A DNA stretch of 64,000 nucleotides from NCBI GenBank assembly GCA_964019165.1, contig OZ025273.1:16164714-16228713 (forward strand), in the 5' to 3' direction. This document shows, in pieces, positions 14,310 to 53,250 of the stretch (position 1 is the first letter of the stretch; every line of letters starts with the position of its first letter). The notes under the pieces are model-generated. The model made no database searches and was not told where the DNA came from. It was given only the letters and a program-made list of their open reading frames with translations. Made by a program: the position numbers and the translations under genes. This DNA comes from Mastigias papua. Lineage: Eukaryota > Cnidaria > Scyphozoa > Rhizostomeae > Mastigiidae.

Positions 14310-16611
14310 ATGGAAGGGCAAAGTCAGTTGCTAGCCGATGTACTGTTAGAGGATAAAATCGCGGAAATATGGCCTGAATATCCTTGTCTATACGATGTAA
14401 GATTGCCTGATTTTAAAAACCGAGATACGAGAGAAAAGGCCTACCAAGAAATCGCAGAAAAATTAGAGAAATCAGGTAAGAAGGAATTTCTTGCAACCAA
14501 AATCTTCTAAGAATATATTGTTTATACTACTTTGTAAAATATATGAAAGTAATACTGTGATAGTTTCAACAGAGGTGTGGCTATTGGGGGTGTGGTGTGA
14601 ACCCCAAATAGTTCCATTCAGTAAAGGTATTCCTGAAAATTTTCAGACAAACCAATTCTTTAAATTAGAAACGTAGCTTGCAATTTGGATATTTCAGAAC
14701 TTACTAATCTGTGTGTATATAAAAAGTTGCATAAAGTTACTTTCAACTTGTTTTTGACCTCTTGAATCAAAAGTAAAGTTTATTTACATGTTGTTTATTC
14801 TTCATTAAGTACTTCCCTCATTATACATTTGAGAATTTTACGGAAAACCAGAAAATTAAGGTACAAAGTTTTCATACCCACCAATACTTGAAGTATCAAT
14901 ATCATTTTGATTTCCAGTGTGTGTACATGTTCGCTATTTTGTAGTCGATTGGGTGAAAGCTAAACTGAAGGCACTAAAAAATAGCTTTACAAAGGCAAAG
15001 AAGCCTGGACCAAGTGGAAGTGCCAGAAAAACTCTTACCAAGCGGGCTGCCTGGCTGCTAGAAAAGGTACAGTTTCTTTCTCCTCACGTTGCAACACACC
15101 CTTCACTTTCAAACATTGACATAGTAAGTTTATTTTGTAAATATATCTATGCTTCTAAAAAGTAAATTGTAATTAAGTTATTGCTTATGACAGATGTCCC
15201 TGTATACTGAAAAATATATGTTTCAAAACATGTCAGGTATGAATTCTCAAACAGCTGATTTGACATAACATTTCTTCATTTGTTATAAAATCATATTGCC
15301 CTGCCATGGGACAGATCCAGTACTATTAAAGTATGTAGTGAGCATTTCGCGCTGCTCTTTAGCATTTCTGGGTGGATTATGATTTAAGCTGCTTTGTAAA
15401 CCACAAAGTCTAGCATCATTTCTCCATGCGCCGTTAGAAATCGTGTGATCTGCATTCTCTAGATCAACAGCAGATGCATATGTTGGTTTATTTCTTTCCA
15501 CCAGGTAGTTGTGTAGGCAGCAAGCAGCAAAAATGACATATGTCAGTTTATCAGGGCACATTTCAATTGTTGTAAGAAAAACTCTCCATCTGTGGGCCAG
15601 TATTCCGAAAGCGTTCTCAACCACCCTCCTTGCACGTGACAATCTGTAGTTGAATATTCGCGTTTCTACTTCTAAATTGCGTTGAGGGTAGGGTTTCATT
15701 AGGTTCTCCGACATAGGGAAGGCATCATCACCAACTATATGGTAGTGAATTCTGAATCCTGGTATCTCTTGAAGAAGTGTAGGGCCTGGTAGATCAAGGG
15801 AATTAGACGCTATAGTCTTTTTTAATGTTGACTGGCCATAGACTCCAGCATCACTTGCACGTCCTGCTGCTCCAATATCCACATAGAGGAATTTATAATT
15901 CGCATCTACTAAAGCTACAAGTATGACACTGTAAAAGTGCTTATAATTAAAAAACTCTGACCCACTGTAGCTTGGTTGCTGTATGGCAATGTGCTTTCCC
16001 TCAATTGCACCGATGCAGCAGGGATAGTTCCATTTCTCTTCAAATTCTGCAGCAACTTTCCGCCATTGGTCAGCTGACGATGGGGTCTAAAATAACCATC
16101 TTACAGCCATATATTTTATGCTATGTAATTGTAGGACTTATGCTCAACACCAACTGCAGATGAAAGTGTAAATGAAGAGTTTGATGGGGATTGCGATACT
16201 CTGGAAACACCTAGCACAGTCATTGATAATGAAATGGAAGAAACGCCCAGAGGGACAAAAGAGCCGAATAGGTTAAAACCGAATAGGAGAAGGCAAGCTG
16301 AAGAGGAATTGAAGCTAATCAAAGGATTAGCACAGTCTATTTCTGAGAGAAGAGCGAAGGTGCAAAGGACAGATAAAGCAACAAATACCGCTATTGAACA
16401 TTTTTCTCAGTATGTTGCACACACGCTATATGACTTGGACCCTGGAGCTCGACATTTGGCTCAACATAAAATAAGCCAAGTCCTTTTCCAAGCACAAACT
16501 GGAACACTGACTGTAGACAATCCATATGGATTTATGGCTCCTACACAACCCCAGCCACAGTTTTTCCAACCCCCTACTTTGCAGTTTAGTTCTACATGTA
16601 TCAATAACTGA
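14310..16611 (+). CDS. MADF protein gene of element B, three exons, open
   Basis: Exon 1 (14310-14475) starts at ATG with EIWPEYPCLYDVRLPDFKNR, the MADF N-terminal half. Exon 2 (14945-15123) continues in phase with VDWVKAKLKALKNSFTKAK and AAWLLEKVQFLSPHV, and ends at a strong GTAAGT donor. Exon 3 (16135-16611) gives an acidic and then basic linker, a BESS-like segment (FSQYVAHTLYDLDPGARHL) and a Pro/Gln-rich tail. All three exons join in phase without a stop, about 274 codons. Nuclease exon 3 lies in its second intron on the opposite strand. Role: end-binding partner of the nuclease. Confidence 0.8.
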
Positions 16612-19702: not shown

Positions 19703-20141
19703 GTTCCCTGCTCCCGCCAAAAGCACTACAACTTTATGTGACTTGTTGCAGACAGATCACGTGGGAAGTCGCATCTACTTTTCATGTGTAAACATGACAG
19801 GCATGTTGCAACAAGTAGCAAGTTACAGCAACTTACAACCTCCTGCGACCTATCAGTTTGAACACTATCAATGGAGCAATTATGTAGCTATGAAAGTGTA
19901 ACATAAATTCCCAATATCCTGTTTTGTAAACGTTTGGCATTTGGCATCATAGCGAGTCTTTCCCTTCAAACATGCCACTTGAGCATCTTAGTCTTTTTTA
20001 AACATTTCACTGCATTCCCCACACTTCTGCTTCTCTGCCAATGTATACTTCTTCAACTGACAAACAGAGTTTCTTCTGCTTGACTCTGTGTTGTCTTCCG
20101 TCACGTATTAGAATATAACTAAATGGTTTCTGAACATGTCA
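19703..20141. other. Spacer between element C and element Z
   Basis: This should hold the 5' flank and perhaps the right terminus of element C. Several TTGCAAC-like words repeat at 19745-19840. On the minus strand near 20040-20070 a short frame has CGECSEMFKKD, but it has stops and no clear family. Confidence 0.35.
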
Positions 20142-20149
20142 AACTGACT

Positions 20150-20985
20150 CAATCATCTTCGGAGCGAGACCATACAAATAGGGGCTCTCCAAAGAGACAT
20201 ACAAATAGGGGCTGTCATACAAATGGGGGCGCTGCGGGTGGCCACTTGATGGATCGCAACAACATTCAAATCTAGCCCAAAAACTCACAGATTAACAACA
20301 AATGCAATATGACGGAGGTTAACTCAATGGACTACAACTATACAGTACATGGCCAGTGCACGTATCACAGATACCACACTATCGTCTCCTTATCCACTTC
20401 AGAGCAGCCCTCTAAGTAACCGACCGTTTTCTTTCAAAGTTTCTCTATCGATTTGTGAAGACAGTTTGCCGAAATCTCTTATAGTTTCGGAGAAGAGACA
20501 TACCATACATATAGGGGCATGTCTCATAGCAAATAGAAGTCGTGTCTCCTTACCCATTTCCGACCAAAATAATATGCAATCGAACATTCTCTATCAAACT
20601 GTGAAGAAATTTTGAACAAATCTCTCATAATCGCCGAGAAGAGACATACCATACTTATGGGGGCTCTTAGTCCAACTCCGCATAAATCACAGTATGCAGA
20701 GTGTACAACTGAATCTAGGGTATACTCGCGAAAAACATAAATCGCGTCTCCCCATCCATTTCAGATAAGAGTAATATGTAATCGAATTGTCTCTATCGAT
20801 TTGTGAAGAAAGTTTGCCGAAATCTCTTATAAATCGCGTCTCCCCATCCATACCATACATATAGATGCATGGTATATGAAAGAAAAATACACTAGCGTCA
20901 TATGTCAGGCCCTTTCCGGTTGGCTGAGTGGTTACTGAAAATAGGAGATGGAATAATACAATACACACATGGAATAAGTTGAAGC
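20150..20985. repeat. Z left subterminal repeat array
   Basis: Imperfect units containing GAGACATACCATACATATA and AGGGGC, linked to TTCACAAATCGATAGAGAA in inverse orientation, are repeated about four times. They are the inverted counterpart of the larger array at 35085-37120. GGGGC before a CAT or CTC word marks each unit. Probable transposase-binding region, by inference. Confidence 0.85.
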
Positions 20986-21931
20986 CAGTAGTAGGAGGGC
21001 ACTACTGCTCGATACATGACTGATTGTCATTCATATTAAGTACTTTCTTGTATTTAATATGAAGGTAGCCAGTTCAAATGTATGAATGCTGTATTGCATT
21101 GGTTAATTTTGACTGTAATATATATATAAACCATGAAAGGAGGGCGGTATAAGTCGTGTTGATAACATCTAGTATAGCTACTTAAAAAAGCTAGCCATAT
21201 GTAATGACTGAAGGGTGTATTAGATTGATGAACTTGACTGGAAAACATTCATGACCTAGTGTCAATCACATCAAGTACGTTCTTTAATTTACGTTTAAAT
21301 TAGTTCTCTTCAATGTATGGACGGTCTACTGCATGGGGCAAGGTGATTGGACGATATTTTTAGCAAGGGTCCATAAATGTTAATGAACTACGAGAAGACG
21401 CTCAGATCTTCAGAATTGATCCACTAGTACAAGTCAAGGTGAAGAATCGTGCAGAATGATGAAGGCCAGAGGAAAGAGCTCAAGCAATTTTCCATACCTG
21501 GGAACATTGCATGGAAGCGCAGCCAAAGTCTGGCTGCATAGAGGAGAGGACAGGATAGGTTGGGGGCAAAGGGGTCCAGCGAGGAAGTGGCCGATCGGCG
21601 AATCGGGAAAGCAGAACAACGTTCTGTTCCCAAGGTCCCGTGATGAGAATACGGTGGGTAGTGCTTTTAAAATCTCTTAGGTTCAATGGTATGCGTTCTG
21701 TGATTTATAAGGCAGACGAAGTACTGACTTATCTCGAGTACCTCATTAAACTGTATGTGTAAAGATATGTGATGAGACCACGATAACTACATAATTCTAT
21801 ACTACACCAATGTCATATAAGAACTGAAGCTTTGCCGTAAAAACAAATGAAAATGCTAAGTATACTAAGCTTCATTTGTGAAGTAGTTATACATTTCATA
21901 GAAAATAACTACTACTCTATCATTCCATCAG

Positions 21932-22204
21932 GTTGCAGTCTTCAGTGATTTGCAGCTACGGCCAGTGGTGGAGAAGGAGGTACCAGTTCCACACAACTGG
22001 TATGTTAACAGTACTCCAGGCGGCACATTTCTAGATGTGAGCATCGAAGTGGAAGTGGCTGCGAAAACGCTTCACAAAACGCCTACAAATGTTGTCCTTG
22101 CCATCGGCACAAACGATGCAGGGTGACATATGGTCATGGAGCGTGCCGAGAGGCATTTCAGGTTGTTGCTCTCGAGCGTTGCGGCACATGTCCCAATGGC
22201 AAAG
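21932..22204 (+). pseudogene. SGNH-hydrolase-like exon in element Z
   Basis: A 91-codon exon is bounded by an AG acceptor (CCATCAG) and a GT donor (AAAGGTTAG). It encodes VFSDLQLRP near the start, STPGGTFLDV, and VVLAIGTNDAG followed by a TGA at 22124-22126, then ERAERHFRLLLSSV. The S-D block, GGT and GTND motifs are those of SGNH/GDSL esterase-like folds. A later piece near 24200-24300 (LPRLDEFDHRLDMYN) may be the catalytic His end. The remaining exons are not resolved. Whether it is spliced to the transposase gene downstream is unknown. Confidence 0.6.
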
Positions 22205-22941
22205 GTTAGTTGTTATATGCTTGTTGTGTTCTGCTTTTAACGGAATTCTATGCTTTTAATCAGCTGTCAACAATGCTGTGGCGGAAAGGTGTAGGTACCT
22301 TTATCTGCATATATTCCTTTCACACTTTATTCCTTCTGCCATAGATATTCCTCAGTTTCAATAGAAGCCACATGCTCCAAAATTCTCTAAATTGTGAAAA
22401 TATGCAGTAAAACATTAGCAGATATGGAAAAGTCCTCAGCAAAAAGCTGGGGTCATAGCAGATCTTGTGTGATTTCCCCTAGACAGTAACATCTATAATC
22501 TATTTTGAGCTGCAATTTATTTCCTTTGTGTCAATTAGCTTGTATCTATAAGCATGTATACTTTTGTTGCCGACGTTTTAGAACTATTGCTACCCAACAT
22601 CACTAACTATAATAATGGTGCATTGTCTTTCCCGATGTTGTCTTCGTAGTTCTTCTGTGTCTAATTAAAGCTACGGCTAAAGCTAGACCTTTCTCTCGAC
22701 TTTTGCTACACATGTGTATTCCAAAAATGTGCAGATGTATACTGCTACGGCCAAACGGCTGTACATTTCACTCTACAACTTACTGTTAGATTCCAGACAA
22801 ACAGGCGACGGTTATTAATTTTTATTGTGTTTTTCAACCCCTTGGAGCTTAATAGCACAACCGTTTAGTACATGTCAAGAAATGGAAAGTGGTTTATAGG
22901 GGTTTTCTTTCAGACAAGAATATTCTTCTTACACCAAGTTA
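22205..22941. other. Intron-like spacer within element Z
   Basis: AT-rich sequence with no motif-supported frame. It follows the donor of the SGNH-like exon and is probably intronic. Confidence 0.4.
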
Positions 22942-23347
22942 TACACGCTTGTTTTTAATAAGGTACCTACCTCAAGGCCTAGTTCTAACAGTTCCTTATT
23001 TGTAGACCTCAAATCAGCAAATTGTAGTACCAAAAGTTCCTTAATAGTTCCTTAATTTTCACTACTCATCAAGTGCCGTAGAAATGGTAAAGAAAGGGAA
23101 AACATACAATTTTGAATTTTGCCTTTACTTTTGGCTTGAACTGAGAAGCTACGTGTGCGGAAACTACTGAATGAAGCACTTGAAAGGAACCGGCTTGTTT
23201 AGTTCTTGATGCTTGCAGTTATAAAAATCTTTCAAATCGAAAAGGTCCTTAGGGATTTCGTTTTTAGTAGTATAAGTTCTTTAAATATCTCTGCCTTCTA
23301 CATGTAGGTTCCTTATAAACCGGTTCCTTATAAAAGAAAAGCGTGTA
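22942..23347. mobile_element. MITE in element Z, about 406 bp
   Basis: TACACGCTT at the left pairs with AAGCGTGTA at the right, and an AATAAGG(T/A)ACCTAC block follows on both sides. Repeated GTTCCTTA words fill the interior. A related sequence with the same GGTTCCTTATAAA words and a GCCGTGTAG end lies at about 33318-33425. Confidence 0.55.
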
Positions 23348-25223
23348 GTGATTCTTTCACCAAGTGAATGTGTCCATTGATATTTGCTAGAAGTGAAATC
23401 GACAGCTTTATGACCATTACACTTAAAACATACAACGACCCCCATGTACTAAGGCCCCCTGTTTATTAGGTTCTTCACATATCTTACCGGTCCCCTGTTT
23501 ATCAAGCCCCAGTTTATCAAGCCCCTGTTTGTTAGGAACCTCTAAGAGTACCAGACTTTGAAGTGGGAACCTCTCTTTCACAGAAATATCAAAAATCACT
23601 TAATAAATCTCAGAAAAGCGATGAAGTAGGCATGCGTAAACTATATAAAAGTGGGAAGCCGGTGAAACAGCAGTACAACGCTATACAACTTATAAATCAC
23701 CTAGATTTTTTATTAAAATCAAAAACACCATAGCGTACATGTACGCTATAGAGCCGTATAGAAAGTGGCCAAATGGCTGGGTGTTTCACTACTGTTCTGT
23801 ATAGTGAAACATCGACAGAAAATCTAGTCGTTTGGGCACAGCGTAATAGTGTAACGATGAGAGTTTCTGTAGGGACTAATCAAAATAAGAAACTCGGGGC
23901 CCTGAGGACGTTACTATCAGGTATACAAATTGAACAAATATCATTGCATACCTGTTTTCGACCCCTCTCAGGCTCAAGGCCCGGAGAAATCTGCCCTACC
24001 AGCCCCTCTCAGCGGGCACGAACAGGAAGGTTAAATTCTGAACTCATGTAAAAGACGGAAAGTATAAATTCTGAAATATAGTATATATCCTACCTCCCTT
24101 CAGAATTAGAACCGTATCCAAGATCGCCCACTAGACACAATATTCTCTAGCTACATCTTGAATTCATACTACAGACTGCATTAACTCTTTGTAGATCATG
24201 GTTTCTTTCATTCTGCCAAGATTGGATGAGTTCGACCATCGGCTGGATATGTACAATTCCATGATGCTTAAAGTTGTGGAAGAGATTAGGGGGAGTTGGT
24301 AGACAATCGAAACAACTTCCCCTCAAAATAGTGACTTCTTTGGTCCTCCAAAGATAGTGTCCACCTCAGTACTGACTATGGCGTGCCACGTCTTCTGGAG
24401 GCCATTGCCAAATGCATCGCTCATTCTAACGCAAACGATGTTAGGACACATAACAGAAGCCGCAGCATACCATTTGAGGATGGTTTTGATACGTAAGCTG
24501 CAAACGTTGTTTGTTCCTTCCATCCTTACTTCGTTATTCGTTACTTTTGTTGCTCACTTCCTTATTTGGTATATGTAAAATAATGAGCAGCAAGCAGCAT
24601 GGAGGTTGCAGAATGCAAGTCGTCCTACATCAATGGCAGTGACGAATTCCCTTGCAGCTCTAAACCTATCGAGTACCCTTGTATCTCCATGCCCGTTAGG
24701 GTACTTTAACAACAGGTGTATTCTGCAACTTAGTCTATACTGCAATGCATGTCTTATAGTTCTCGCCTACTTAGACTAGGAGTGGATGAAGATAAAAACA
24801 GCTTGGTGTCATCGTTGGTGCATAAAATCGACGGTGCATAAACTCGACAGTGCACAAATGACAGGGAGTTGACAGCGGGAAATAACCCTTCTTTGCTCCT
24901 TCATAGCAGTATCCTGAGCAACCCTGCCGCTTTCCATGTTAGTTAGAAACTTCTCTATCTTCTTGCAGGGTATCCGATAGGCATTCAAAACGCAGTAGAA
25001 CAAAGGGCAAACCAATAACCGGTGGTCGCCAAATCGACACTTGTGTGCTTAAGCACAAATGCTTCGCTTATTCAGATAGGGTAATGTATACAGATAGTAT
25101 GTTCATATTTGTGTGGAATGTTTCCTGCTGAAAATTAATTTTGTTTTAAGTTCCGCTTCATATTTCTTTCAAGTTCTGTTATGTATCGTTAATTCACTGT
25201 CAGTTATCCTTCCCCCCTAACAG
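23348..25223. other. Non-coding or unresolved part of element Z
   Basis: At 23446-23540 a short imperfect tandem of CCCCTGTTTATCAAG-like units is visible. A frame at 23773-24051 has no recognised domain. Bases 24197-24300 may encode the end of the SGNH domain. Small exons of the Z gene could be missed here. Confidence 0.35.
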
Positions 25224-28200
25224 ACTGCAAGTAAATGCGCAGGAGAACTCTCCGAACATGGAATAGTTTGGAAGAGAAAGAAGGGTATGTTGGATTATAA
25301 GTGAAAATCTAGTTATTGAGACTAAATGCTTTTACTTTATCTAATTGGTAAATTTATTAGGTTTTGCTGTATTGTCCTTTTATGTGCAATACGTCTTTAG
25401 GGCTTATCCGTGGTGTTCTACCCAACAGGTACAAATTTTGTATGAAGCCTACCGTCTATTACAAGCAGGGACGTAGGAAGCATCTAAAGAGTGGGGGGGC
25501 AAATCCTAAAAGGGGCACATTACTACGTCCATTTTGGGCTTCAAAGGGGTACTTCTGCATAGTTTGCTAAAAAGTGGGGGCAATGGCCCTCCTGGCCCCG
25601 CAGCTCCTATGTCCCTGATTACAAGCTGGCACCACGGACGGTTTAGATGACTTACGGACCAATCCGTTAATAATGAGTTGTTAGTGGCACTTTCCATAAA
25701 ACTGTATTGCACCTTACGGCAGTTCTTTCATCCTTGCATGCAACAAACAGCCTCCTCAGCAGTATTGCAACATTTGCACTAGTTCCAAAAGTATATTCTC
25801 GCAGAGTACATTAGCTCATGTGTCTATTAACAGGTGCAGGTAAACGGAATAAGAGTAAAAAAGCAAAAGAAGTTGCAAAAGCTGCAAGGGCGAAGGTAAC
25901 TGTTTTTATTTTTTCTTATGATGAAGAAATACACAAGATCAAGTTTCCTGTTGGCACGCTAATGTCATTGCTATGGTAGAGTTTGTTAACGTATCTTTCC
26001 GTACTCTTCATGTGCAATAGTTACTTAAAGATCCATACATTTTCTCTTATTTAGGAGGATATTGATTTCTCGGATGTGATAACATATCCACCAGAAGATC
26101 ATATGTTCCCTAGTGTATTGCAGGTATAAAGCTTCAATTAAGAAATGCCTCAATCTAAGTCTAAGTCATCAAACTGATTACCTGCCATCTCAAAGTTGAA
26201 TCTGAACCCTTTTCATAAACTTTTGCAGTTAACTCATGCACTTTATTGTGACTTAAAGCAGCGTATTTACTTTTTATTTACTTATGTTGTTATGACTTCT
26301 CTTGTAAAAAGCTAACTGTCATATTTTATTTCCAAGGCAGGACAGGCGGGAGGCGGTAAGGGCGGTGAATCCCATCCTGAAGGCAAGAAAACACATGTCG
26401 CAGTGGAAGAACAAAGGCATGTACTTGCTGGCATGAGCTGTTCTCCTGTTGTGCGCTTTACTGAGAAGTATGTCGAGAATCGCCACAACACCATAAGCGA
26501 TGGGAGGACCCTTGACTTCATCCCGCCTTTGGAGCAGGTAAATCGAATGATCTCACGCCTGGAACAATTCAAAAATGTCCGTGGCCGTGAGTTTATTGTA
26601 GAAATTAATGGCTCGTATTTAGATGTAGTGGAGCTGAGAAAGTTGCGTTTGCTGCATGAGAAGAAAGATATTAAGTACGAAGTCACACAGGAAATTGAAT
26701 GGTTTCGTAAAATTAGCGACGGACTTAACCAGCCAACCGGTTCCCCAGTTGTAGACTCAACCCTAGCAGCAACGTTTTGTAGCATGCTGCAAGATACAAG
26801 TGAAGGGCATTTTTGGCCAAATATGCAATTGAAAACTTGCGAGATTAAGCGACTGGCTGTAAATCATTGGTTGTCAGATTTGGTAGTATATCGTATAGGG
26901 GAGCTTTTGAGTGATTCTGACCCGGACGTTTTCGTTTTTTATTATACTTTTGTCACTGACATAAGCTCTATTGGTGAAAGAATACGTGCGAAGCATCCAA
27001 ATGCGAAGCCCAACAAAATAATTTTTGCAATTAACTTAGGTAAGTTGAATGGTAAGACATATTTGGGAAATACAATGATTGGAAACAAACTAGTATCTGG
27101 TTGCCATTTTGCTATGGGGGTTTATTACGCGGAGCAAAATGAATGGTTTTACGGGGATTCCCAAGGCTGGCTATTGCCCGAAAATGTGGTTGGGGATTTG
27201 CAACAATTAATTTCTGTAGTTTATGGTAGTGAAACATCTCATAACACAGTTTTCTCCATGTGTCATACTCCCCAAAAAAACGAAATCTTTCACTCATGCA
27301 GCAAGGAATGTTGGAAACATTATCCACTTCAGACTTGTTCCCATATATGCGGTATCTCTGTCATAATTTCCATGTGCCTGGCTGCTTGTCCAGATGACTC
27401 CTTTCTTTCATTGAAAGGAGGACCTGAACAAGCCACTGAAGGTTTTGCATATATAAGGAGGATTTCAGATTATAATGAGTTCTTGTGCTTGGTTGTAATG
27501 CAATGGCTACTGACTGGGAAAGTTGACATCTCTTTAGTAAGATGCGCACACACATTTAATGGATCTACTAGCTTGCACTTAGGTGAGGAGGAAACAGCAG
27601 CACCAGTCACTAGCGAGGCGCAGAAGCAGGATAGTTCATGTAATGCAACACTATTTGAAGGAAAGCAAATGTCTGCTGAGGACTCTTTAGAAAAGTGTAC
27701 ACCTTGTAGCAGTGTACCACATGTTTGCAACATTCCTTTAAGCTCTAGAAATAATACTATTTGTAGCCTTGTAGATGAGTGTAGCACAGCCGACGGAAGG
27801 AAATGTAAGTATATATATAAACATCATCATTGCACCCTATGCCCCCCATGGAAACACTTCCAGTCATTATATCACATAACTCGCCATATTCAACAAGCTC
27901 GCGTGAATCCAAGCAGAACTTTTGATTTCAACGGTTATCGTATAGTACCATGTAAACAAGAACATCCAGATTGCAAGTACAGTGAATCAAGATACCATTA
28001 TCACTGCCCTCTGTGTAATAAGACAGTGTTGCATAAGAGCTTGTTTGAACAGCATTTGCAAGGTCATAGTTGTGATGTGAATGCTTCGAAATCTTTTCAG
28101 AACACAGCTACCAAAACTAAAAGTATTACTATTACAGAAGTGCCCAATCAGCAGCCTGGTAGTAAGATTATAAGCACTGAAGATGACAAGGAAGCACAAC

Positions 28201-28661
28201 TAGCAACAGCAACTACTGAAAAACAAGACGAGTTTACTTATGTCAGTCATGTAGCAGATAACATTTCAATGCCCTATGCATCTTAAGTTAGCAGGGCTAT
28301 TAATGTCCTTTCGACTTGTCATAAATGTGGGAAAGAAATGTTGAAAAAGAACTTGAAACGTCATTCTGCCACTGTTTATAACAGTATTGCCATAACAGCT
28401 GTCTGTTGTGATCAAGAGCGAGGGCTGTATATGGTTCGAAAAAATCAGAAGGGTGGTATTGGATATCCGGTTCATGTACAAAAAATTCTTCACTCTAGTA
28501 AGTCAACGTCAGTGGACTGTTGTGATCCTAAGTGCAAACTTGAAATGCAGCTGGCAGGGAGGGCAAAAATGACAGGTCGCGAATGCAGACACTTGCTACA
28601 AATAAATAACGCAAGCTACCCAGATCGATTACTCTCCTGGACACACAGGTTCATGAATTAG
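25224..28661 (+). pseudogene. Z transposase gene, C48 protease and C2H2 part
   Basis: Exons 25224-25284, 25834-25895 and 26055-26123 join in phase to a long exon from 26337, all with AG/GT borders. The first exons are Lys-rich. The long exon encodes a region (VDSTLAATFCSML...KRLAVNHWLSDLVV) leading into a C48/Ulp1-like protease: His in GCHFAMGVYY, Asp in YGDSQGW, and QTCSHICGISVI with the catalytic Cys. Three zinc fingers follow (HHCTLCPPWKHF; YHCPLCNKTVLHKSLFEQH; CHKCGKEMLKKNLKRH). A TAA at 28284-28286 breaks the frame, which then reads on to 28661. Ulp1-type domains cleave SUMO-like modifiers; the role in transposition is unknown. Confidence 0.8.
25466..25617. mobile_element. hAT-type MITE, 152 bp, TSD ATTACAAG
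   Basis: CAGGGACGTAGGA at the left pairs with the right end (complement CAGGGACATAGGA). The 8-bp duplication ATTACAAG is exact at 25458-25465 and 25618-25625. Length of the duplication and the CAGGG ends fit hAT. It lies in an intron of the Z gene. Confidence 0.9.
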
Positions 28662-30454
28662 GGCAAGATAATCATTTCAAAAGTTTTAAAACTGAGACTA
28701 TTTCGAAATGTATAGAAGTAAATCAGAAAGCTATTGAAATAAATGCTCCGACTGTTGTGTAGTGGCATGATGGCAATTATATACATTTGTCCGTTTTTGA
28801 CTGCAATCTGCAAAGTAGGCCAGTGCAAATGAGATGCATTGTTCCCTTTAACACTCAAAATGGGAACCTAGATTGTCAGTGCCTTCAACATAGTTTCTTT
28901 TGTATACATCGGGCGATGGGTGTGTGGTTCCTATGCCAAACTGACCAGTTGCAATCGACAATCAAGAACGCCTATATTGACACGGAAGGAACTGACGATT
29001 CTTCAGATGAACAGTGTAAAAGGTAAAGGTAAAGGTGAGTCCCCTGTATGATTCCATACGTTGGGGGAGTGCCCATTAGAGGGACACTTATCCTGAGCCG
29101 CTGGCATAGTGAGGTAGGGTGGCCAGTTCCTTTCCTCGCCGCCTTTAGCTTCCCCAGTGTTGCCACCAGGTACCCATTTACTGCTGGGTGGACAGTGAGC
29201 GAGCATCCCAACTATGATCCGAGGTTCAGATGAACAGATGAAGAGTGTACTGTTTAGATGATGATCCACTGTTCAGATGAACAGTGTACTGGTAGCAAAC
29301 CTCAAAACCCCCTGATGTTCGGACATTTTGTTTATCCTCCTGAAGAAGGCACTGCACTTGCAAGGATGTGTAAGTATCTGAAGACATGCAAGCAAATACC
29401 AACTAACCTCCCATCACACTTTACGTCAGTTTCGAATGAAAGAATACCTAAAGCATTTATACCAACTGAAAATCAGTGCCACAAGTGCAAAGGAAACCTC
29501 AAGGGCCCCTTGTTAGTTACGAAGAATGCAAAAGTCTTATCAATGAATGGCGTGCTTCATGGTCACGCAACTTTCATCAACATTTGCCCTGAATGCCAAA
29601 TGTGCTATAGATATCAAGAGGTAAATGATGGAGTCCATAATTTTGATGATCAGTTCCTTCTGACACTAGACATGTGTCTATTTATTAGAGAAAGCGTTAA
29701 ACAACATGTAGCTGTGGGAACTGTTTGTGAAATTCTTGAACACTATTTGCATATTAAGCTCAAGCAACAGATAGTTTTGAACACTTACCTACACTTTGAG
29801 GCCCTAACTGAGCACAGTTATGATTTTAATTGTGTAATGTGCGGCTTCCATCCCCCAGTTCTGATTGCAGATTTAAATAGGACAGTTGTTTTCAAGTGCC
29901 GCACAATTGACGATAGCATACCGGATAATGAAGATGACAGTAGTGACTACGTGGACTGTCAGGAGTTTTCGAATAAAGTTGAAACTAATATGATTATGAG
30001 GGGATTTTCTCTTAATATACCTTTGGACTTTCAGGTTAAGCCATCAATCTGTAACTGGTCACCTTATATAGGTAAATTTACAAGATCAAATATCTTAATG
30101 GTAAATACTGAGCACACAAAAATTCACAGGACCACTGGGGAGGTAGAAGCTGATTGCAGAGAATTATCTGAGGAACGTCTTATGGAATTTCTGCATAAAG
30201 GAAAGTTAGTCGAAATTAAAACAACAGCAAGAAAAGTGGGTGTCAGTGATAAAGGCTCAAAACTGGACATGATAAACAGAATTAAAGGAGCGCTTAATAG
30301 ACATAACGTTACATTTAATATAGTATTCAAGAAGCTTTGGGGCTGCTCTGGTGGTTGGCTTACAATGGCATGTGCCCATGCCATTATATACGGAGTCAAG
30401 TTTTTATTAAGATCTGGAAGTCCTAGAGACTATATTGACAAGCATGAAGCATAG
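28662..30454 (+). pseudogene. Z transposase gene: SWIM, Cys cluster, SAP, KDZ part 1
   Basis: After a frameshift near 28640 and a TAG near 28760 the frame encodes a SWIM finger (DCQCLQHSFFCIH: CxC...CxH). The SINE-like insert at 29019-29271 leaves the frame intact, and the text resumes with FGHFVYPPEEGTALARMC, CHKCKGNLKGP, CPECQMCYRYQE and a probable first catalytic Asp in VLIADLNRTVVF. A SAP-like DNA-binding helix pair follows (LMEFLHKGKLVEIKTTARKV...GSKLDMINRIK). GCSGGWLTMACAHAIIYGVK leads into the nuclease core. The layout resembles the Zisupton-derived part of HMGXB3. The frame breaks near 30440. Confidence 0.85.
29019..29271 (-). mobile_element. SINE-like insertion, 17-bp duplication
   Basis: The 17-bp TTCAGATGAACAGTGTA occurs on both sides (29002-29018 and 29272-29288). 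The left end carries an AAAGGTAAAGGTAAAGGT run, which on the minus strand is an ACCTTT-repeat tail. There is no coding content. The right side also has extra partial copies of the target (29224-29250), as if the 5' junction was locally duplicated. No A/B box was recognised, so the class is uncertain. Confidence 0.7.
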
Positions 30455-32555
30455 ACCTAACGTCCTAGTGTGCGATATGGCACACATGGTCGCTGTGCAA
30501 GGACACAGGTTCCATGATACTTTCTTCAGTCCATTTGAAGGTCGTGTTGCCGCTGGTACAGTGGAACATATTGAAAATGCGAAAGCCGGTACCCTAATAA
30601 TTTCATTCCCTTTCTTGGAAGATAACTTGCCAGCAGATCAACAAATTGTAGACTTTGAATCCCATCCTGTAACAGGCAGTAATGTCCGACTAGCACTTTT
30701 TGATATTTTTCACCAAGGCAACACAAACAATGATAATGAAGTGCTCCGTCGAATTGGCTGCATGAAAGAACTAAAGGGTACCTTAAATAGCCAAGCTGCA
30801 GAGCAGCTTCATCACTCGTTTAATAAAGACAAGCATGTTTTAAACCAGATGACCCCCGTTAATCACATCTTTCTATTTAGGTCTGTTATAGAGCTGCAGA
30901 ACGAAGCTAAAAATATAAAAGTAATGAATAAAATGAGGGAGCAAACCCATACAAGATTGTGTTCAGATCGATTTGGTAGAAGCTACCTGTCGGGCTTTGA
31001 GGAGCAGGCTTACCTCTTTGACAAGTCACTTGACAGAAGTAAGAACAGTGTGAATGATTCATCTAGCATGGATTCTGACCTATGTTCAAGCCCCTCGCTA
31101 TTTAGTAATGTCGACATTGATCATCCTCTGGAGGGAAATATGGATGGTACCAATGATGCATCTTCTATTAGGAGTAATGTTAAGTCAAGTCCTTTACTTT
31201 TTAATGACATAGAAACAGGCTGCATTGACATAAACTGTAATAATGAAGGATCTGAGATTGATTCTGAGTCTTTGCGTGGGGCAAGTCCTGCGAAAAGACA
31301 GTGACAAATCAATCAGAGTATCATCGATAATGATCATGACGTTGATCGTAGCAATATATGGATTGAAGAACTGGGCTTGACGATTGCGGATAAGCATTTA
31401 CTTCAGGATGGTGGTTATATGAATGTAGCAATACTAAACGCATCTTCCAAACTCATTAAGCAGGAGAATCCTGCATTAGCAGGTCTTCTGCCAATACTGG
31501 GAACAGGCACTTACATAGGCGATGGAAGACTATTTGTTCAAATTTTGAAAATCACTGACAGCCATTGGATAATGATGTCCAATGTACTAACAGAACAGTG
31601 TAATGTGTCCATGTATGACAGTGCCCAGAGGTTACATTATAAGAGGGAAAGTAAAGAAATAAGGTACAATGTATCCATCAAGGTAGATGCGTCCAGCTTG
31701 AGAGCTCGCCCTGAGAATGAACTGACAATTTTTGTTGAAGACACCCTACAAGTTAAAAAAGATTGAGACAGTGGTATAGCGGCTATCATGTTTGCTCTTG
31801 CCATTGCTAGACATCTAGATCCACAACAAATAAATTTCAACTATAAACTATTACGCAGAAAGCTACTACATTGCTTTGAGGAGTTGAGCTTCAATTCCAT
31901 AACGTTTGATGACAGTCCACGTAGACACTGGAAAAGGAAATTTGAATGTACTGTTCCCCTTTACTGTCATTGTAATAAGCCAGACTTAGGTGACCGCATG
32001 ATAAAGTGCGGAACTTGCGATAAATGGTATCACGTAAGTTGTGAGGATGGCGATTCTGAAAATAGTGACTGGAAGTGTAAGCTCTGTTCTAAGTCAGAAA
32101 GAGAGGTAGAAGGTCATGACACAATAAGTCATTCTACTCTATCTCACCGTGAACAAAACTATACAGAATTGTCGTGGAAAGAATTGGTAAATAGTATAGA
32201 AAGGGAATACAATGATGCGTGCCCTACTGTAAACTTAAATAGATTGACCAGGTTTATTGAATGTTCATTGAAGGAAACATGGCTTCGTAACTTACTTGAA
32301 ACTATAGATATAGATTTCCCTACTACCCCATCCTTGGGTGGCATGGAACATGCAAGTATCCAATTGATGGTCAAATATAGTTCAACCAGGTACGAAAACG
32401 CATCTAACCTAATACACAGGTTAATCATTACAAAGCATGCTTCAAAATTCCCCCTTGGGAAGAGAGGTGCTGACAAAGCATTGCCACTTAGTGCTAACGT
32501 CCTGGAGAGATATTTTCAACACATTGAGTCATCGTCAGCACCGAAAGAAATCTAA
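30435..32555 (+). pseudogene. Z transposase gene: KDZ part 2, C48-like domain, PHD
   Basis: One frame with two TGA stops (near 31302 and 31764). It starts with the second catalytic Asp (VLVCDMAHMVAVQG) and continues to AAEQLHHSF, which holds a likely catalytic Glu, and IFLFRSVIELQNEAK. A Ser/Asp-rich linker leads to a Ulp1-like domain: GYMNVAIL, His in DSHWIMMSN, Asp in SMYDSAQRL, then DSGIAAIMFALAIA where the family has D-C-G, so the catalytic Cys is Ser here. A PHD finger follows (CHCNKPDLG...CGTCDKWYHVSC...WKCKLC). PHD modules usually read histone tails, which could influence target choice. Confidence 0.85.
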
Positions 32556-33911
32556 GCTAGGTGACAATGGCATAAATAGAACTGAACTGTACTTTCAAGC
32601 GGTTGAGCCCCTATCATTATGCTAGTACTTTTATCGTTTTGCAGTTGAGTGTATTCCTTCCAATAGCTTTATGCAGGCGCGCAACTAGAAATTTGTGAGG
32701 GTAGGAGTCTGAAGTAACAAAAAAGGGCACTAAGCACTTTCTAAAGAGAATCTATGTTGCGGTAATGATTTAAAACAAAACAAATCGTAAAGCAAGTTTC
32801 ACAGTTAAACAAGTATCCAAGAAGAAGCATCCTTTTACTGTTGTTAGGAAAAAGGCAGGGGTCTAGACCCCCCAAGACCTACCCCGTAGTAGCGTGCCTT
32901 ATATTTTAGTATAACGGGTTAATTCTGTAAACTATATTATTTTATCTATGTGTTACTTTAACCCTTTAGCTTTGTTTCTTCGTTTAGATATATGTTAGCA
33001 TTTGTTAATATAGCCATTCAGCACTGTTATTTTTATTATCTATGAGTTAGTATGACGATTAAGTGTAGTACAATTTGAACAGGTATTATAGCTAGCCGTA
33101 TACATATATTCATTTTGTAAAGTACAGCATTATTGCAATGAAATGTTGAATTAGGACGGACGCATTACTTAGTTTAGGGGGCTGGATGGGGAATCTGCCA
33201 TTCTACAGCACAATAGCCTCCTGGCATATCACCTTACATCACAGTTACGCCTTTAATTTTGGCTATATTTTACAACCAATCAAACATGAAACCCTTGACT
33301 TGGAGAACCTTCCTTTAGTAGAATAAGTTCCTTAACTATTTTGTCATTCTACAAGTAGGTTCCTTATAAAGTGGTCCCTTATAACGTGTTTCCTTATAAA
33401 AAGCCGTGTAGACAAGGGCTTCAAACTCCAAGTAGGTGGAGGCCTCTGGGCCTGTTTCTTATCAAAGGAATGCGTGCATCTGCAAACACAAATCGATGAA
33501 CAGGAGGAAGTCTATGTTGGCTACACGATGATCCATGGTTACATTCATGGTTACCATAAAATGCCTCTCTTTCCAGACAAAGGCCCCTATGCATGCATAG
33601 TAGTAAGATGCTAAGGGAATAGATCTTACTGCCATATTAGCATTTATTGCTCTATTCCTCTAAATGCCAGAAGACCCCATAATGTGGCCGAAAGGCCGTT
33701 AGATTGAGAGCCAGTTAGATCAACGCCATAGTGGATATATGTACTATTCTATTGGCTATTGAATGCTACTAGTGACGTACGTACTTATGTATTTTCTTGT
33801 CTTTCTCCTATTCCACCATACCTTGCCATAATGTAGCTGGGGCTTATATGAGGTTGGGTTCATTGTAGGGGGAGGGGGTCTTACAGCTTTATTTGGTAAT
33901 TGCCTGACTAA
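32556..33911. other. Non-coding 3' part of element Z
   Basis: AT-rich. At 32672-32888 the ends CAGGCGCGCAACTAG and CTACCCCGTAGTAGCGTGCC suggest a decayed hAT-type MITE without a clear duplication. At 33318-33425 a partial relative of the MITE at 22942-23347 occurs. No gene is seen. Confidence 0.4.
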
Positions 33912-34900
33912 GGGAGTGGTCATAAAGTATCTACTATATGGGGGTGGATGATATCTGGCTGGGCCATGACACATTCTACCTTACCTTTATGGAGCTATAA
34001 AAACAGTCAGGCCCATCCTATGGGGCCATGGAGAATGTAATAAGGAACGTCATGTTTCAAAATCAAATAAATAGGCGGCTAATCAGCACTTGGCACTCCA
34101 ACAGATGTAGACAGACTACAGTACCACTGCACTGTCCAGAGCTGTAATCGTGTAAAAACCATCAGCCCAACACTGTTCACTACAACTGATTCATGGCAAT
34201 ACTAAACTTTTTTATACAAGAACAATGTTATATGAACACGAATTTCAAAACTTTTATGTTCATCTTCATCTCCAAAACTGTCAAAAAATCATTGTTCCAT
34301 CATAAAAGCAATAGCATTACAATGAGACTTTATTTTCACATTTTCTACATCTACAATCGATATGTCTTGAGCAGTCATCTTCTGGTACCGATTTTTTATT
34401 TCATAGAAACTGTATTAACAATGTTTTATGAGGTTCAGCCATAACTATGGGGTTGCATGGGGTGACAAATGCCACCCCTGGACAACAGGCTCCCAGCTGT
34501 TTGCTACCCTTGAAAATTTTTCTGCAGTTTTTCATTATTGCTTTATAGTAAGGACATATTTCCTAAAGTTTGGTTGATCTCAGTTTCGGCATGTACAATG
34601 CAGTTCATTCTTTCCTTTTCCACAAATTTATCCATACAATTTGACATTTACTTGGACAATTGTGATGATATAAAAGTCTGGAAATGCTCTCAGACCCCAT
34701 GACACATGATTTACCAAGACAGTTGTGCAACCCCTGAAACACAGGCCTGGCTACGGGGTTTATGGGGTCATGACAAATATCACGAGTTTGCTATTGGGCC
34801 ACAAAAAGTAAACGTAAATCTAGGATGGGCCACACATTTATTTGGTGACGTTTAGACAAATCATCCACCCCCATATAGCAGATACTTTATGACCACTCCC
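33912..34900. mobile_element. MITE in element Z, 989 bp, TSD TAA
   Basis: GGGAGTGGTCATAAAGTATC at the left is matched by its complement at the right, with about 42 bp of near identity. TAA at 33909-33911 and 34901-34903 is the duplication. A second inner inverted pair (GGCCCATCCTA and TAGGATGGGCC) lies near 34010 and 34822. No open gene; Harbinger-type by its target. Confidence 0.85.
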
Positions 34901-35084
34901 TAATATCAAAAGAACAGTCATGAGTTCAGCTCAGGCATGTATCACTGTTTTTATTATCCTCTGGTGAGCTGAAGGCCACTTTACGATAGACTGACCAATA
35001 TCACAGCTTATAACGAAACATACCCTACAAGCCCCTGCATGAATACCAAATCTCTTCTCATCAACAACCAGAAGGTTCTCCAGA

Positions 35085-37120
35085 TTTTCTTCCCGTATCG
35101 ATAGAGAAAATAAGCTTAGTCTCCTGAAATTGATTAAAGGTCACTAACTAAATTTTTCGCAAATATACCCTGTGTTTGTATTGTACTGTGTACATTACGG
35201 GCCCCTGTATGTATGGTCTCTTTGTCTCGAAAACGATGCCAGATTTTGTGAACCTTTCTTCACAGAGTGCATTACACTATACTGAAAAGTAACAAGATGT
35301 TACAGGAGGAAAATACACAATGACTCAATACAAATAAACAGGTTTCCTTGTAACGATAAAAGCAACCAATTCCAAAAACTGGCACCACGATACTCTCAAT
35401 ACGACAAACCACTTTGACTGAGCCTCTCTACAACAACCGCTAATGACGACTTCACATAATGACTGACTAACTACATCAGGCACACCGGAGCCGCACTATA
35501 TACATATTATTATGATGTAACTAAGGGGGCAATGCAATGGCATGGTGACGGAACACAAAAAACAACAGTATACTAAGATTAGACAATACGTCACCAACAA
35601 GGTAAGTGACATGATAACAGTAACTGTGGGAGATGATGATGATGCAAGACGACAAAAGACAGGCATACACGGCGTATAGCCTAAGAGCCGCTATATGTAT
35701 GGTGTGTCTCTTCTCGAAAACTATGAGAGATTTCGTCAAAATTTCTTAACAGTTTGATAGAGAATGTTTGATTACATATTATTTTGGTTGGAAATGGGTA
35801 AGGAGACACGACTTCTATCTGTTATGAGACATGCCCCTATATGTATGGTATGTCTCTTCTCCGAAACTATAAGAGATTTCGCTAAACTTTCTTCACAAAT
35901 CGATAGAGAAAATTCGATTACACATTATTCTCGTCTGAAATGGATGGGGAGACGCGATTTATGTTTTTTGCGAGTATACCCTAGAGTCAGTTGTACACTC
36001 TGCATACTGTGATTTGTGCGGAGTTGGACTAAGAGCCCCTATATGTATGGTATGTCTCTTCTCGGCGATTATGAGAGATTTATTCAAAATTTCTTCACAG
36101 TTTGATAGAGAATGTTTGATTGCAAATTATGTTGGTCGGAAATGGGTAAGGAGACACGAATTCTATTTGTTATGAGACATGCCCCTATATGTATGGTATG
36201 TCTCTTCTCCGAAACTATAAGAGATTTCGGCAAACTGTCTTCACAAATCGATAGAGAAAATTCGATTACATACTAGTCTTATCTGAAATTGATAGGGAGA
36301 CACGACTCGTATATTTCCCAAGTGCGCCCTATCGTCCTATACTACTGTGTTTACAGCGGTGCATACGGCATATGGCCTAAGGGCCCCTATATGTATGGTA
36401 TGTCTCTTCTCGAAAACTATGAAAGATTTCGTCAAAATGTCTTCACAGATCCATAGAGAAAGTCAGAAATGGGTAAGGAGACACGAATTCTATTTGTCAT
36501 GAGACATGCCCCTTATATGTATGGTATGTCTCTTCTCAAAAACTATAAGAGATTTCGTCAAAATGTCTTCACAGATCCATAGAGAAAGTCAGAAATGGGT
36601 AAGGAGACACGAATTCTATTTGTCATGAGACATGCCCCTTATATGTATGGTATGTCTCTTCTCAAAAACTATAAGAGATTTCGTCAAAATTTCTTCACAG
36701 ATCGATAGAGAAAATTCGAGTACATAATAGTCATATCTGAAAGTAATAGGGAGACACGACTCATATATTTCCCAAGTGCGCCCTATCTTCCTATACTACT
36801 GTGTTTACAGCGGTGTACACGGCGTATGGCCTAAGAGCCCCTATAGGTATGGTATGTCTCTTCTCGAAAACTATGAGAGATTTCGTCCAAATGTCTTCAC
36901 AGATCGATAGAGAAAAGTCGATTACATAATAGTCATATCTGAAATTAATAGGGAGACACGACTCATATATTTCCCAAGTGCGCCCTATCTTCCTATACTA
37001 CTGTGTTTACAGTGGTGCATACGGCGTATGGCCTAAGGGCCCCTATATGTATGGTATGTCTCTTCTCGAAAACTATGAAAGATTTCGTCAAAATTTCTCT
37101 ACAGTGTAATAGAAAACAGT
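35085..37120. repeat. Z right subterminal repeat array
   Basis: About ten imperfect units repeat at 120-480 bp spacing. Each has CCCCTATATGTATGGTATGT or a close variant, then CTCTTCTC, a GAAACTATGAGAGATTTCG block, TTCTTCACAG, GATAGAGAA and a GGGAGACACGA block. Two neighbouring units (about 36450-36580 and 36580-36710) are almost identical. This is the inverted counterpart of the left array, but more than twice as long. Confidence 0.9.
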
Positions 37121-37619
37121 CGGTTACCTAGAAGGTTCCTGTGAAATGGAAAAGGAGGCGATAGTTGTGAGTCTGTCATATGTACAGTACACTGGCCATG
37201 AAATGGTTCTTCACCCAAACTGTACAAGTCAATGCATGTAGTGAATACCACTGGGAGTAGTTGTATTGCTACAAGATAACCCCCATCATATCGCATTTGT
37301 TGTTATTCTCTGAGTTCTGTATCTAGAGCTGTGATGTTGTTGCGATCCATCAAACGGCCACCCGCAGCGCCCCTATTTGTATGACAGCCCCTATTTGTAT
37401 GCCTCTTTCAAGAGCCCTTATATGTATGGTCTCGCGCCTAACCACACTCAACTGACTGACGTTGTGCTATGCTTAGAAATGTCTCCTCCTTTGAAGATAC
37501 ATCTTTGTAGCATTATACGTTCTTAAGGATGCTATTTGTTGCAAAGTCTAATAGTCAAGTGACAACGCAAAATATGCTAAAACTAAGTGCCAAGGTTCTC
37601 CTAATAAAAACGGAAAGGG

Positions 37620-39085: not shown

Positions 39086-42000
39086 TGGTGTAGTGTAGTT
39101 ACTGAGGAGTAGCACCTTTGTAGGCTTGTCAGCCGCACATCTGTGATGTGGACAAGAACACTGGTCTCCCAGGGCTGCATAACTCTCGCTTATGGCTCCT
39201 AGAAGTCAGTAGTGTACACTGACGGCCACACCACGGGATCTCGCCTCGGCTGGCGTGCTAAACTAAGTAGAGGGTAGCACCAGTCCCTTGGACTGGAGTG
39301 ATAGGGGACGTCACCCCTTAAGTGCACAAAGTCTGGAATGGCTGATGAAGCAGAGGAATTCATGTGGATCAATGGTTCAGAAGGCATGACAGCAAGATGT
39401 GTGACACATCTAGAGCACTATCTTGACGGAAGCGGATACATGGCCAGTCACCATGGAAGGGATTGGGCCCCCACCATGTATTACCGAAGTTAGTCATGGA
39501 TAGAAATAGTATTAGATTTAGAAGTATTGATGGTGAAGTTGAGACCCCTGCGACTGAGCCAGATAAAAACTACAGGGAAGAGGATAATGTTTCATTAGTA
39601 AATAAATTAGTGGATGATGAAGATGTCTTAAACCCTAGAAGGAGGACACCTTCTGATAGTGCTAAATTGAAAACTAGAAACAGATGCCTAAAACTGGGAA
39701 CTTGGAATGTAAGAACTTTATATCAAGCTGGAAAATTAGACAATTTGATACAAGAAATGGAAAGTATGAGATTAGATATTCTAGGAATTGCGGAGACACA
39801 TTGGGTTGAAGAAGGAAAAATTATTAAAGAAAATCACACAATGATATACTCAGGTGGAGAAATGCATAGGAAGGGGGTGGGTATCTTGATGAAAAACAAT
39901 ATAGCTAGGTCAATGCTGGGCTTTTGGGCTATATCAGAGAGAGTCATTATGCTGAAATTGCAAGCAAAGCCTTTCAATATTAACATTATTCAAGTGTATG
40001 CACCAACATTAGATTGTGAAGATGAAGAAGTTGAGAAGCTATATCAGGAAATAAACAATGGCATCAAACAAACAAAGTCAGGTTAACTGCTATGTGTAAT
40101 GGGAGATTTTAATGCGAAAGTTGGAAAAGAAAAATATGAGAAGATAGCAGGTTCACATGGATTAGGGAATAGAAATGAAAGAGGAGACAGGCTAATAGAA
40201 TTCTGTCAACAAAATAACTTAAGCGTTGTCACTACTTGGTTCCAACAGCCAACAAGAAGATTATGCACTTGGAAAAGCCCAGGAGGTACAACAAGAAATC
40301 AGATAGATTACATACTAAGTAATGAACGGTTTAGGAACAATGTGAAGCAAGTAAAAACATACCCTGGGGCAGATATAAACTCAGATCATATTCCAGTTGT
40401 AATGAAGCTAAATATTAAACTTAAGAAACTGGAAAAACCAAAAGTAAGAGATCAAATTGATTTAGAACTATTAAAAGAAGAGAGTTATAAAAAAAAGTAT
40501 AATGTCGAGATTAGAAATGCGTATTCAAGATTATCAAATCAAACACTTGAACAAACTCCTGAAGATCAAATTGAAGTGGAGAAGACATGGGGCATAATCA
40601 AAGAAAGCTTAAACACGTCGTTGAGAGCAGTACTGCCGAGTAAACGTGCAAAGAAAAAGAAACCCTGGATGACAGATGATATTCTTAGGAAGATGGAAGA
40701 ACGAAAGAAATTCAAGAATATAGATTCAGATAAATACAAACAACTAGATAAAGAAATTGAAACACTATGTAGACAAACAAAAGAAAAATGGCATGTAGAC
40801 CAATGTGAAGAAATTGAGCTATTGGAAAAGCAGCACCGAACAAGAGAAATGCACAAAAAAGTAAAAGATCTTACCAATAGAAATTCAAGGAAGACAGCTA
40901 GTGGTTGCATAAAGGATAGGAATGGAAAACTACTTTTCGATCAGGAAGACATAGCTAATAGATGGGCAGAACACATCACTGAGCTGTACAATGACGATAG
41001 AAGGGAAATGCCAAGTTTTGAGGTAACGAGTGGCGAGAATATCATGAAGGAGGAAGTTGAATTAGTTATAAAATCTATGAAAGATAAGAAAGCAGCTGGA
41101 CCTGATGGACTATCAACAGAAACTCTGAAAGCTCTAGATGATCAGAACATTGACATGATTACGGACCTATGTAATACTATATACAACAGTGGCATAATAC
41201 CAGCAGACTTGAAACACTCTGTATTTGTAACTCTACCTAAAAAACCAAAAGCACAAGATTGCTCATCATTCAGAACAATTAGCCTCATGAGCCATGTCAC
41301 AAAATTACTTCTCAAAGTCATCCAAAGAAGATTAACTGATAAAATAGATCAGGAAGTAAGCCGTCTACAGAGCGGATTTAGACCAGGTGTAGGAACAAGG
41401 GAAGGTATATTTACCTTAAGAACAATTTGTGAGAGAGCACTAGAAGTTCGAAAAGACATCTACATCTGTTTTATTGACTATGCAAAAGCATTTGACAAAG
41501 TTAAACACTCTATGATGATAGAATGCCTATCAGAAATTGGCATAAATGACAAAGATTTACAGATAATAACCAAACTATACTGGGAACAAACCGCGACAGT
41601 AAGAACTGAAAATGGCGTAACAAAAGAATTTCAAATAAAGCAAGGAGTCAGACAGGGGTGTGTACTATCCCCAAGTTTATTCAACTTATATACTGAGAAA
41701 ATATTCAGAGAAATAGAGGAGATGAATGGAGTAAATATAGGTGGAGTCAACATCAACAACTTAAGATATGCAGATGACACGGTGCTTCTCGCAGAAAACA
41801 ACACAGATTTACAAGACTTAGTAACAGCAATAAATAATAAAGGGAAGCGATATGGAATGGAGATAAACATCACAAAAACTAAGGGAATGATTGTTAGCAA
41901 GAAAGAGATGGTGCCTGAAATAAAGATCAGTATAGAAGGAAAGAATATTCAGCAAATGAAGGAAATGATATATCTAGGTTTTATGGTTACAGAAAATGGA

Positions 42001-52388: not shown

Positions 52389-53250
52389 TTACAATTGATA
52401 TTTTTTGTAGCTAGGTTATTGCACGAGAGAAATTAGTGGAAAGGCAAAATCACTGCAAGTAATGGAACTGAGAAAGCTATGGTATAATTTAGAGGAAAAC
52501 CAGGAAAAAAAGCTGAAAATAAGGTAGTAAAACCAGTATGAGGAAAAAGGGACAAGTGGCACAACTGTGGTGTACAGGGGCATTTTGCAACATATTGTCA
52601 TAAACCAAAACAAATGATAAGTCGCAAATGTAAAGAGAACAACCCAACACATCAGCATGCATACGCTTATGATGAAAAGGAACATGTGTTGTTTCCAATG
52701 TCATTTTATACTGGTAGTGCTTCTCAGTGGTACATGGATTCTGGTGCTTTGTAGAGCATGACTAACAGCAAAGCTTCAACGGTGAACTACCCATAATTGT
52801 CTTCACCAGAATTAGTTAGGATTGGAAATATTTGTTAGGTTAAACCTTAAGGAGAAGGGAATATATGGAATGAAGTAAAAGCAGCTGTGTACAAGCTAGC
52901 TGACTTAGTTGATGTATTATATGTACCTGAATTGGGAAAGAAGTTATATTTCATAAGTGCGGTCACAAAAAGAGGTAACACAGTATTGTTTGAAAAGGGG
53001 AACTGCGTGATGTTGAATTCTTCTGGAGTTGAGGTTGGTTCTGAAAAAGTGCAAGGAAAGTTAATCAGTTGTAATGCTAATGTACACCATACACGTTAAG
53101 GCTGATTTCCACGGGGCGACTATTTCGCCGCGAATTTGCAGAGAAATTAATTTGAGCATGCGCACTAGGCTTTCTGATTTCGTAGCGAAATCGCCGCGAT
53201 CTCTTTTCTGGATACAGCGAAATTCGTAGTTTTGGCGCGCAATATCGAAC

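Follow-up and report, generated by a model that had tools for sequence, protein, structure and literature searches.

A 17.3-kb DNA transposon with 8-bp target duplications in the scyphozoan Mastigias papua, and a predicted SGNH hydrolase on its transposase

What kind of mobile element occupies positions 20150 to 37449 of a 64,000-nucleotide stretch of the Mastigias papua genome (assembly GCA_964019165.1, contig OZ025273.1, 16,164,714 to 16,228,713 of the forward strand; hereafter the window), and what does its transposase carry? The original prediction, made from the letters alone, described a Zisupton/KDZ transposon with an exact 8-bp duplication, subterminal inverted repeats and a coding part composed of C48 protease, C2H2, SWIM, SAP, KDZ nuclease and PHD modules. 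We consider it very probable that this is a defective member of a DNA transposon family that was active recently, duplicates 8 bp of its target and moves by the mechanism proposed below. All positions are those of the window, and features lie on the forward strand unless stated otherwise.

The 17,300 bp from 20150 to 37449 are flanked by two copies of the 8-bp target site duplication AACTGACT (20142..20149 and 37450..37457, without strand), and the ends are common to 15 other insertions. A search of the genome (346.8 Mb, 172 contigs) with the left 201 bp gave at least 41 matches, including the window's own two ends (40 candidates were scored); when the query started 20 bp outside the left end, the matches mostly began at or within the element. 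We read 25 ends from 16 insertions, nine of which (the window's included) were read at both ends, the other seven ends being read singly with their partners outside the sample, and in all 25 the alignment starts at base 1 or 2 of the element. The 8-bp duplications are exact and mutually different in eight of these nine insertions (the window copy, C18a, C3, C18b, C25a, C5, C13d and C22), as the original prediction had anticipated for other copies, and that of C25b has one mismatch.

Empty sites place the insertion to the base. The window flanks, joined as 120+120 bp across one copy of the duplication, match a dispersed repeat in which the element is set (20030..20149 and 37458..37577) and which has at least 38 other copies, at 77-88% identity to the joined flanks, besides the two window halves (40 of 175 candidates were scored). 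In all 10 repeat copies that were fetched, a single AACTGACT is read through and the element is absent. These are paralogous copies of the repeat and not another haplotype of the window locus, so the empty site expected in a second haplotype was found in kind, but at other positions. That two unrelated adjoining repeats only look like one element is ruled out by the same sites.

The 25 ends fall into a left type (CAATCATg..., 14 ends) and a right type (GAGTGTGG..., 11 ends). The window copy has both, its left terminus CAATCATC (20150..20157) being unlike its right terminus, which reads GAGTGTGG inward (37442..37449, reverse strand). Next to them lie the inverted repeats (20158..20265, and 37334..37441 on the reverse strand), 108 nt long and 91% complementary, each with motifs that face inward, at positions 22, 49 and 67 of the element. 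Since the terminal 8 bp of the two ends differ and identity is unbroken only from about 15 bp inward, the term subterminal is correct; the boundaries and the exact duplication originally proposed are likewise borne out.

The copies read over their whole length measure 28,002 bp (C18a), 16,055 bp (C3), 18,497 bp (C18b), 18,476 bp (C25a) and 9,779 bp (C5), C3 and C5 being internally deleted, and shorter derivatives 3,797 bp (C13d), 2,896 bp (C22) and 1,504 bp (C25b). Copies with related ends thus span 1.5 to 28.0 kb, and size, which the original prediction compared with the 11 kb of the fish element, is not diagnostic. An ungapped alignment of C3 with C18a over 10,259 bp has 13 mismatches (99.87% identity); the two copies have different duplications, so the family has been mobile recently. 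Outside the end arrays, 14,502 bases of the window copy align with C18a, at 96.98% identity.

The coding blocks, which had been thought to be split by introns, are one open frame of 1992 codons in C18a and 1961 codons in C25a, which belongs to a sister family. These open frames rule out introns between the blocks, which form a single exon of 5,958 bp in intact copies; the four predicted introns all lie upstream, where four further exons are conserved with GT-AG introns in the same phases (0, 0, 2, 0) in both families. The intact five-exon proteins are predicted at 2305 amino acids (aa) in C18a and 2256 aa in C25a, splicing and start codons being predictions throughout. From the N-terminus the protein has the exon 1 region, an SGNH/GDSL hydrolase, Ulp1, C2H2, SWIM, CxC4, an RNase H-fold nuclease with SAP, a degenerate second Ulp1 and PHD. 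The two families share 61% protein identity, and the ratio of nonsynonymous to synonymous change (dN/dS, Nei-Gojobori) is 0.14 overall, where synonymous sites approach saturation, and 0.053 across CxC4 and the nuclease; in the SGNH part, whose synonymous sites are saturated, pN/pS is 0.30. This pattern shows purifying selection on the gene. Elsewhere, on contig C14 (11821173-11821463), a CxC4 match lies inside a 2089-aa open frame that has SGNH matches a short way upstream and may represent a third intact family.

The same five exons can be followed in the window copy, with damage to several of them. Exon 1 (21377..21653), a conserved region of unknown type, has one gap relative to C18a. The first half of the SGNH/GDSL hydrolase, in exon 2 (21932..22204), reads FSDLQL, so that leucine replaces the serine and the putative nucleophile is lost; the second half, in exon 3 (24195..24492), again has one gap relative to C18a, and exon 4 (24970..25080) is a short linker whose first base is unaligned. 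The giant transposase exon 5 (26337..32555) is broken by stops, frame changes and an insertion absent from C18a, C3 and C18b, placed at 29019..29271 (no strand) by BLAST (253 bp) and as 270 bp from 29002 by MAFFT. Taken together, these lesions make a working protein from this copy unlikely.

The accessory modules of exon 5 are supported to different degrees. PHD (PF00628, 31950..32102) exceeds its Pfam cut-off in the window frames, as does CxC4, and the two Ulp1-like regions are recovered by profile. The N-terminal Ulp1/C48-like protease domain (26883..27512) has its H, D and C, and H, D, Q and C are invariant in 7 of 7 sequences; its profile matches yeast Ulp1 (1euv) at E 6.3e-7 over profile positions 14-78 only, and for the catalytic part the matches are to SENP chains, with E 0.26-0.77. 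In the second Ulp1-like domain (31404..31886) the cysteine is replaced (DSG). The SWIM-like region (28413..28954), with a frame change inside, rests on a CxC..CxH pattern and a sub-cut-off PF04434 match in the relative P0015. Two of the modules named at the outset stay below their cut-offs, namely the C2H2 region (27828..28415; PF12874, zf-met, 20.4 bits against 21.2) and the SAP domain that follows the first strand of the core as an insertion (30167..30304; 13.4 against 23.9 bits). A conserved C-terminal tail follows (32103..32552).

Is the nuclease itself of the KDZ type? The core, a predicted RNase H-fold DDE-type nuclease containing the SAP insertion (29762..30926), follows a cysteine cluster that matches CxC4 (PF18717, 29447..29764) at 30.9 bits against a cut-off of 26.9; the genome holds 11 CxC4 matches, 10 of them over the cut-off, and CxC4 is not among the Pfam matches listed for the whole C18a protein. 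In the predicted model of the core of the relative P0003, the chain adopts an RNase H-like fold, and the acidic residues fall on the strands and the helix where they would be expected. Among the structures listed as similar to this model there is no KDZ structure, which weighs neither way; a first model built from 8 sequences was poor (predicted local distance difference test 48.6) and was set aside. The Pfam KDZ model (PF18758) gave no match to the core at E up to 10, and none of the 53 proteins found has it in its precomputed Pfam list, many of these lists being empty. The same genome has 16 PF18758 matches, 13 over the cut-off, and none coincides with the 11 CxC4 loci. With hhalign, the core scored 0.05% and 0.3% against three PF18758 proteins of the same genome and a PF18758 control pair 99.9%, a weak test, as the KDZ profile holds three sequences only. 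The core aligned to vertebrate HMGXB3 with 98.9% probability (E 2.5e-17) over 344 columns, across CxC4 and the nuclease-like region. A profile comparison of the kind proposed originally favoured HMGXB3, and the label Zisupton/KDZ expresses a likeness that the PF18758 tests of the nuclease did not bear out: we regard the element as Zisupton-like by element structure and as carrying a CxC4/HMGXB3-group transposase by protein.

That the element is an ordinary Zisupton/KDZ member in the strict PF18758 sense, diverged beyond the reach of the model, is nonetheless only a little short of an even prospect. It shares with fish Zisupton the 8-bp duplication, subterminal inverted repeats of about 100 bp, zinc fingers, Ulp1 and large size; CxC4 is named KDZ-associated by Pfam, and a non-significant alignment with canonical KDZ brings the EQ region of the third acidic residue into register. 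Fish Zisupton (Bohne et al. 2012) reportedly has 24 exons and 99-bp subterminal inverted repeats. The element described here differs in its five predicted exons, one of them giant, in its N-terminal Ulp1, SGNH hydrolase and long motif arrays, and in the PF18758 result. PMC12730594 gives duplications of 8 bp for Zisupton and 7 bp for Kyakuja; nematode Zisupton is described in PMC9297572 as multi-exonic, with PF18758 and without detectable duplications. The likeness to HMGXB3 is also partial: HMGXB3 (fish P0016) has HMG-box domains and Q at the first acidic residue, its alignment with the core stops before the third acidic residue, and it is listed as a gene and not as an element. Our literature searches found nothing linking HMGXB3 with KDZ and, for HMGXB3 with transposon, only papers that look unrelated. 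A further point of comparison is the ISCth4 transposase of the IS256 family, which is bacterial, short, without such accessory domains and 11% identical.

The ends raise a second question, that of the repeat arrays. A 15-bp motif, CATACAWATAGGGGC, occurs 15 times in the window, always inside the element; it was scored as CATACAAATAGGGGC with up to 2 mismatches, and first-order Markov sequences gave 0.0 copies per 17.3 kb (10 trials). Across six elements, 190 of 190 copies point inward. With up to 3 mismatches allowed, all 25 ends have the motif at 22 bp and again at 67 or 66, and 24 of the 25 also at 49 (the left end of C25b is the exception), a regularity that is partly due to selection, as the copies were chosen by end similarity. 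The exact pattern occurs 135 times genome-wide and its reversed control not at all. In the window, further copies lie in the right array (35669..37157, reverse strand; units of 126, 146, 202 and 348 bp) and in a left block (20434..20831; motif at 20504) made of the unit of the right array, inverted. The extra length had been ascribed mostly to repeat arrays, miniature inverted-repeat transposable elements (MITEs) and introns; the arrays, at least, are not simply filler, given the motif that they carry. We propose that the motif copies are putative transposase-binding sites.

The arrays could instead be neutral, satellite-like expansions with no role in transposition, a substantial possibility although somewhat the lesser one. 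The left array does vary from about 0.4 kb to about 10 kb among copies that are 96-98% identical elsewhere, as a neutral expansion would. Against this reading stand the invariably inward motifs, the mostly alternating 146/202-bp spacing of the roughly 10-kb left array of C18a, and the deletion derivatives of 1.5-3.8 kb, which have kept the end motifs (save the one at 49 in C25b) plus at least one further motif on each side. Two other observations concern these arrays. On contig C18 (10605917-10634238) about 28 kb separate a left end from an SGNH exon match, and the first 10 kb mostly match the array, which suggests a still longer one. The left array of C3 contains at element positions 860-4140 a nested element; its ends, GGGGGTATTCTACCTTG, are inverted, and its frame of 529 aa is Mutator-like by eye. 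We rejected this frame as a captured gene of the transposon, since GGGGGTATTCTACCTTG and its complement near the ends of the stretch give it the look of a nested element.

The original list of modules was incomplete in that it missed the N-terminal exons for the SGNH hydrolase. The hydrolase that exons 2 and 3 together encode matches PF13472, with two scores of 42.3 and 53.4 bits (cut-off 32.9; E 1.5e-10 and 5.9e-14), over the Asn and His blocks, and the Ser block was placed by alignment to 4c1b. This ORF1-encoded protein, presumably the zebrafish L2 esterase, is the closest solved structure by sequence (E 0.0018 with a single sequence, 3.3e-7 with the SGNH profile, which aligns FSDSQLRP to the GDS block). 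All 12 aligned SGNH sequences have the Ser, the Gly and the Asn unchanged. Counted at CxC4 loci, nine of the 11 genome matches have same-strand SGNH exon matches upstream, eight within about 10 kb and the ninth 36-40 kb away (C10:17139934-17144028 to C10:17103829); the two without are the internally deleted C3 and C5.

Are these exons part of the transposase, or a separate neighbouring gene or captured fragment of a long interspersed nuclear element (LINE) ORF1 outside it? We consider the separate origin unlikely, although several results weigh on its side. The nearest structure is a LINE esterase; the nine CxC4 loci hold 20 of the 78 SGNH matches and the other 58 lie elsewhere; and in the jellyfish Rhopilema esculentum the 189-aa model P0024 joins exons 1, 2 and the start of 3 with no transposase. 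A methionine of exon 5 that lies before Ulp1 is aligned in both families and starts the gene model P0003, so that exon 5 may have its own start, or yield a second, shorter product. There is also a precedent in fish, where PMC4021074 describes the texim SGNH gene as a separate gene that travels with Helitrons; these are rolling-circle elements, whereas here the hydrolase is predicted to be on the transposase protein itself. Against separation, a single open frame runs from exon 1 right through exon 5, both families keep the frames and phases at all four introns, exon 4 and the beginning of exon 5 are conserved from one family to the other, and in the relative P0015, 29% identical overall, one gene model covers the second SGNH half together with the transposase. 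As to the outlying SGNH matches, two of the 58 are near a left end on C21 that lacks a CxC4 match, and some lie in intronless-looking frames (e.g. C13:3848297-3848941).

The SGNH exons probably belong to the transposase, and retrotransposons offer a parallel. SGNH hydrolases occur in non-LTR (long terminal repeat) retrotransposons (PMC3905857), and L2/CR1 LINEs resemble our element as mobile carriers of such an enzyme, PHD also being reported from CR1-like elements; they differ in encoding reverse transcriptase, for which the nine window frames and P0001/P0002 gave no Pfam match. The frames scanned likewise gave no HUH or helicase match, and the 8-bp duplication also sets the element apart from a Helitron. 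Literature searches found no description of an SGNH-transposase fusion, and the searches made here found no described protein with a lipase-type enzyme, two SUMO-protease-like domains and a transposase. One may ask whether all this amounts to a superfamily of its own, made up of giant animal DNA transposons that are sister to KDZ or lie outside it and that share a relationship with the ancestor of vertebrate HMGXB3, with an active SGNH esterase integral to the transposase and with ends that are expandable arrays of transposase-binding sites; we put this forward tentatively, as a composite that is doubtful rather than probable.

The window around the element is dense in transposons. To its right, 39427-42540 is a LINE-like open region with two successive frames (219 and 817 aa) that by eye resemble an endonuclease and a reverse transcriptase, and frames that look like Harbinger/PIF transposases lie at 13465-16086, 42553-43239 and 53230-54321. 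A 453-aa open frame at 61293-62654 is alpha-kinase-like by eye. Searches for Rfam families and for tRNAs gave 0 matches each. A paper on coral MITEs concerns piggyBac-like elements (PMC2872659).

How might such a family move? Intact copies would express a protein of about 2,250-2,300 aa, whose zinc-finger and SAP parts may bind CATACAWATAGGGGC, three copies of which stand at fixed distances from each end, with more in the arrays next to them. The DDE core, of RNase H fold, would then cut at the left terminus (CAATCAT) and at the right one (GAGTGTG), which differs from it, and join both to staggered target positions 8 bp apart, presumably by cut and paste rather than by a copying mode. The N-terminal Ulp1 could act on SUMO or ubiquitin-like modifiers, and PHD could read chromatin. 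One might speculate that the SGNH hydrolase is accessory and acts on a membrane or acyl target, by analogy with what has been proposed for the L2-type LINE esterase.

For SGNH hydrolases this would add a third kind of mobile carrier to the CR1/L2 LINEs and the fish Helitrons, and, with the enzyme apparently on the transposase itself, the role of the esterase in mobile elements could be tested in a DNA transposon. The element would also be a mobile relative of the vertebrate gene HMGXB3. Its recent copies, open genes and exact ends suit the family to a donor/helper assay, and the inward motif arrays would allow a test of how putative transposase-binding sites grow into satellite-like DNA.

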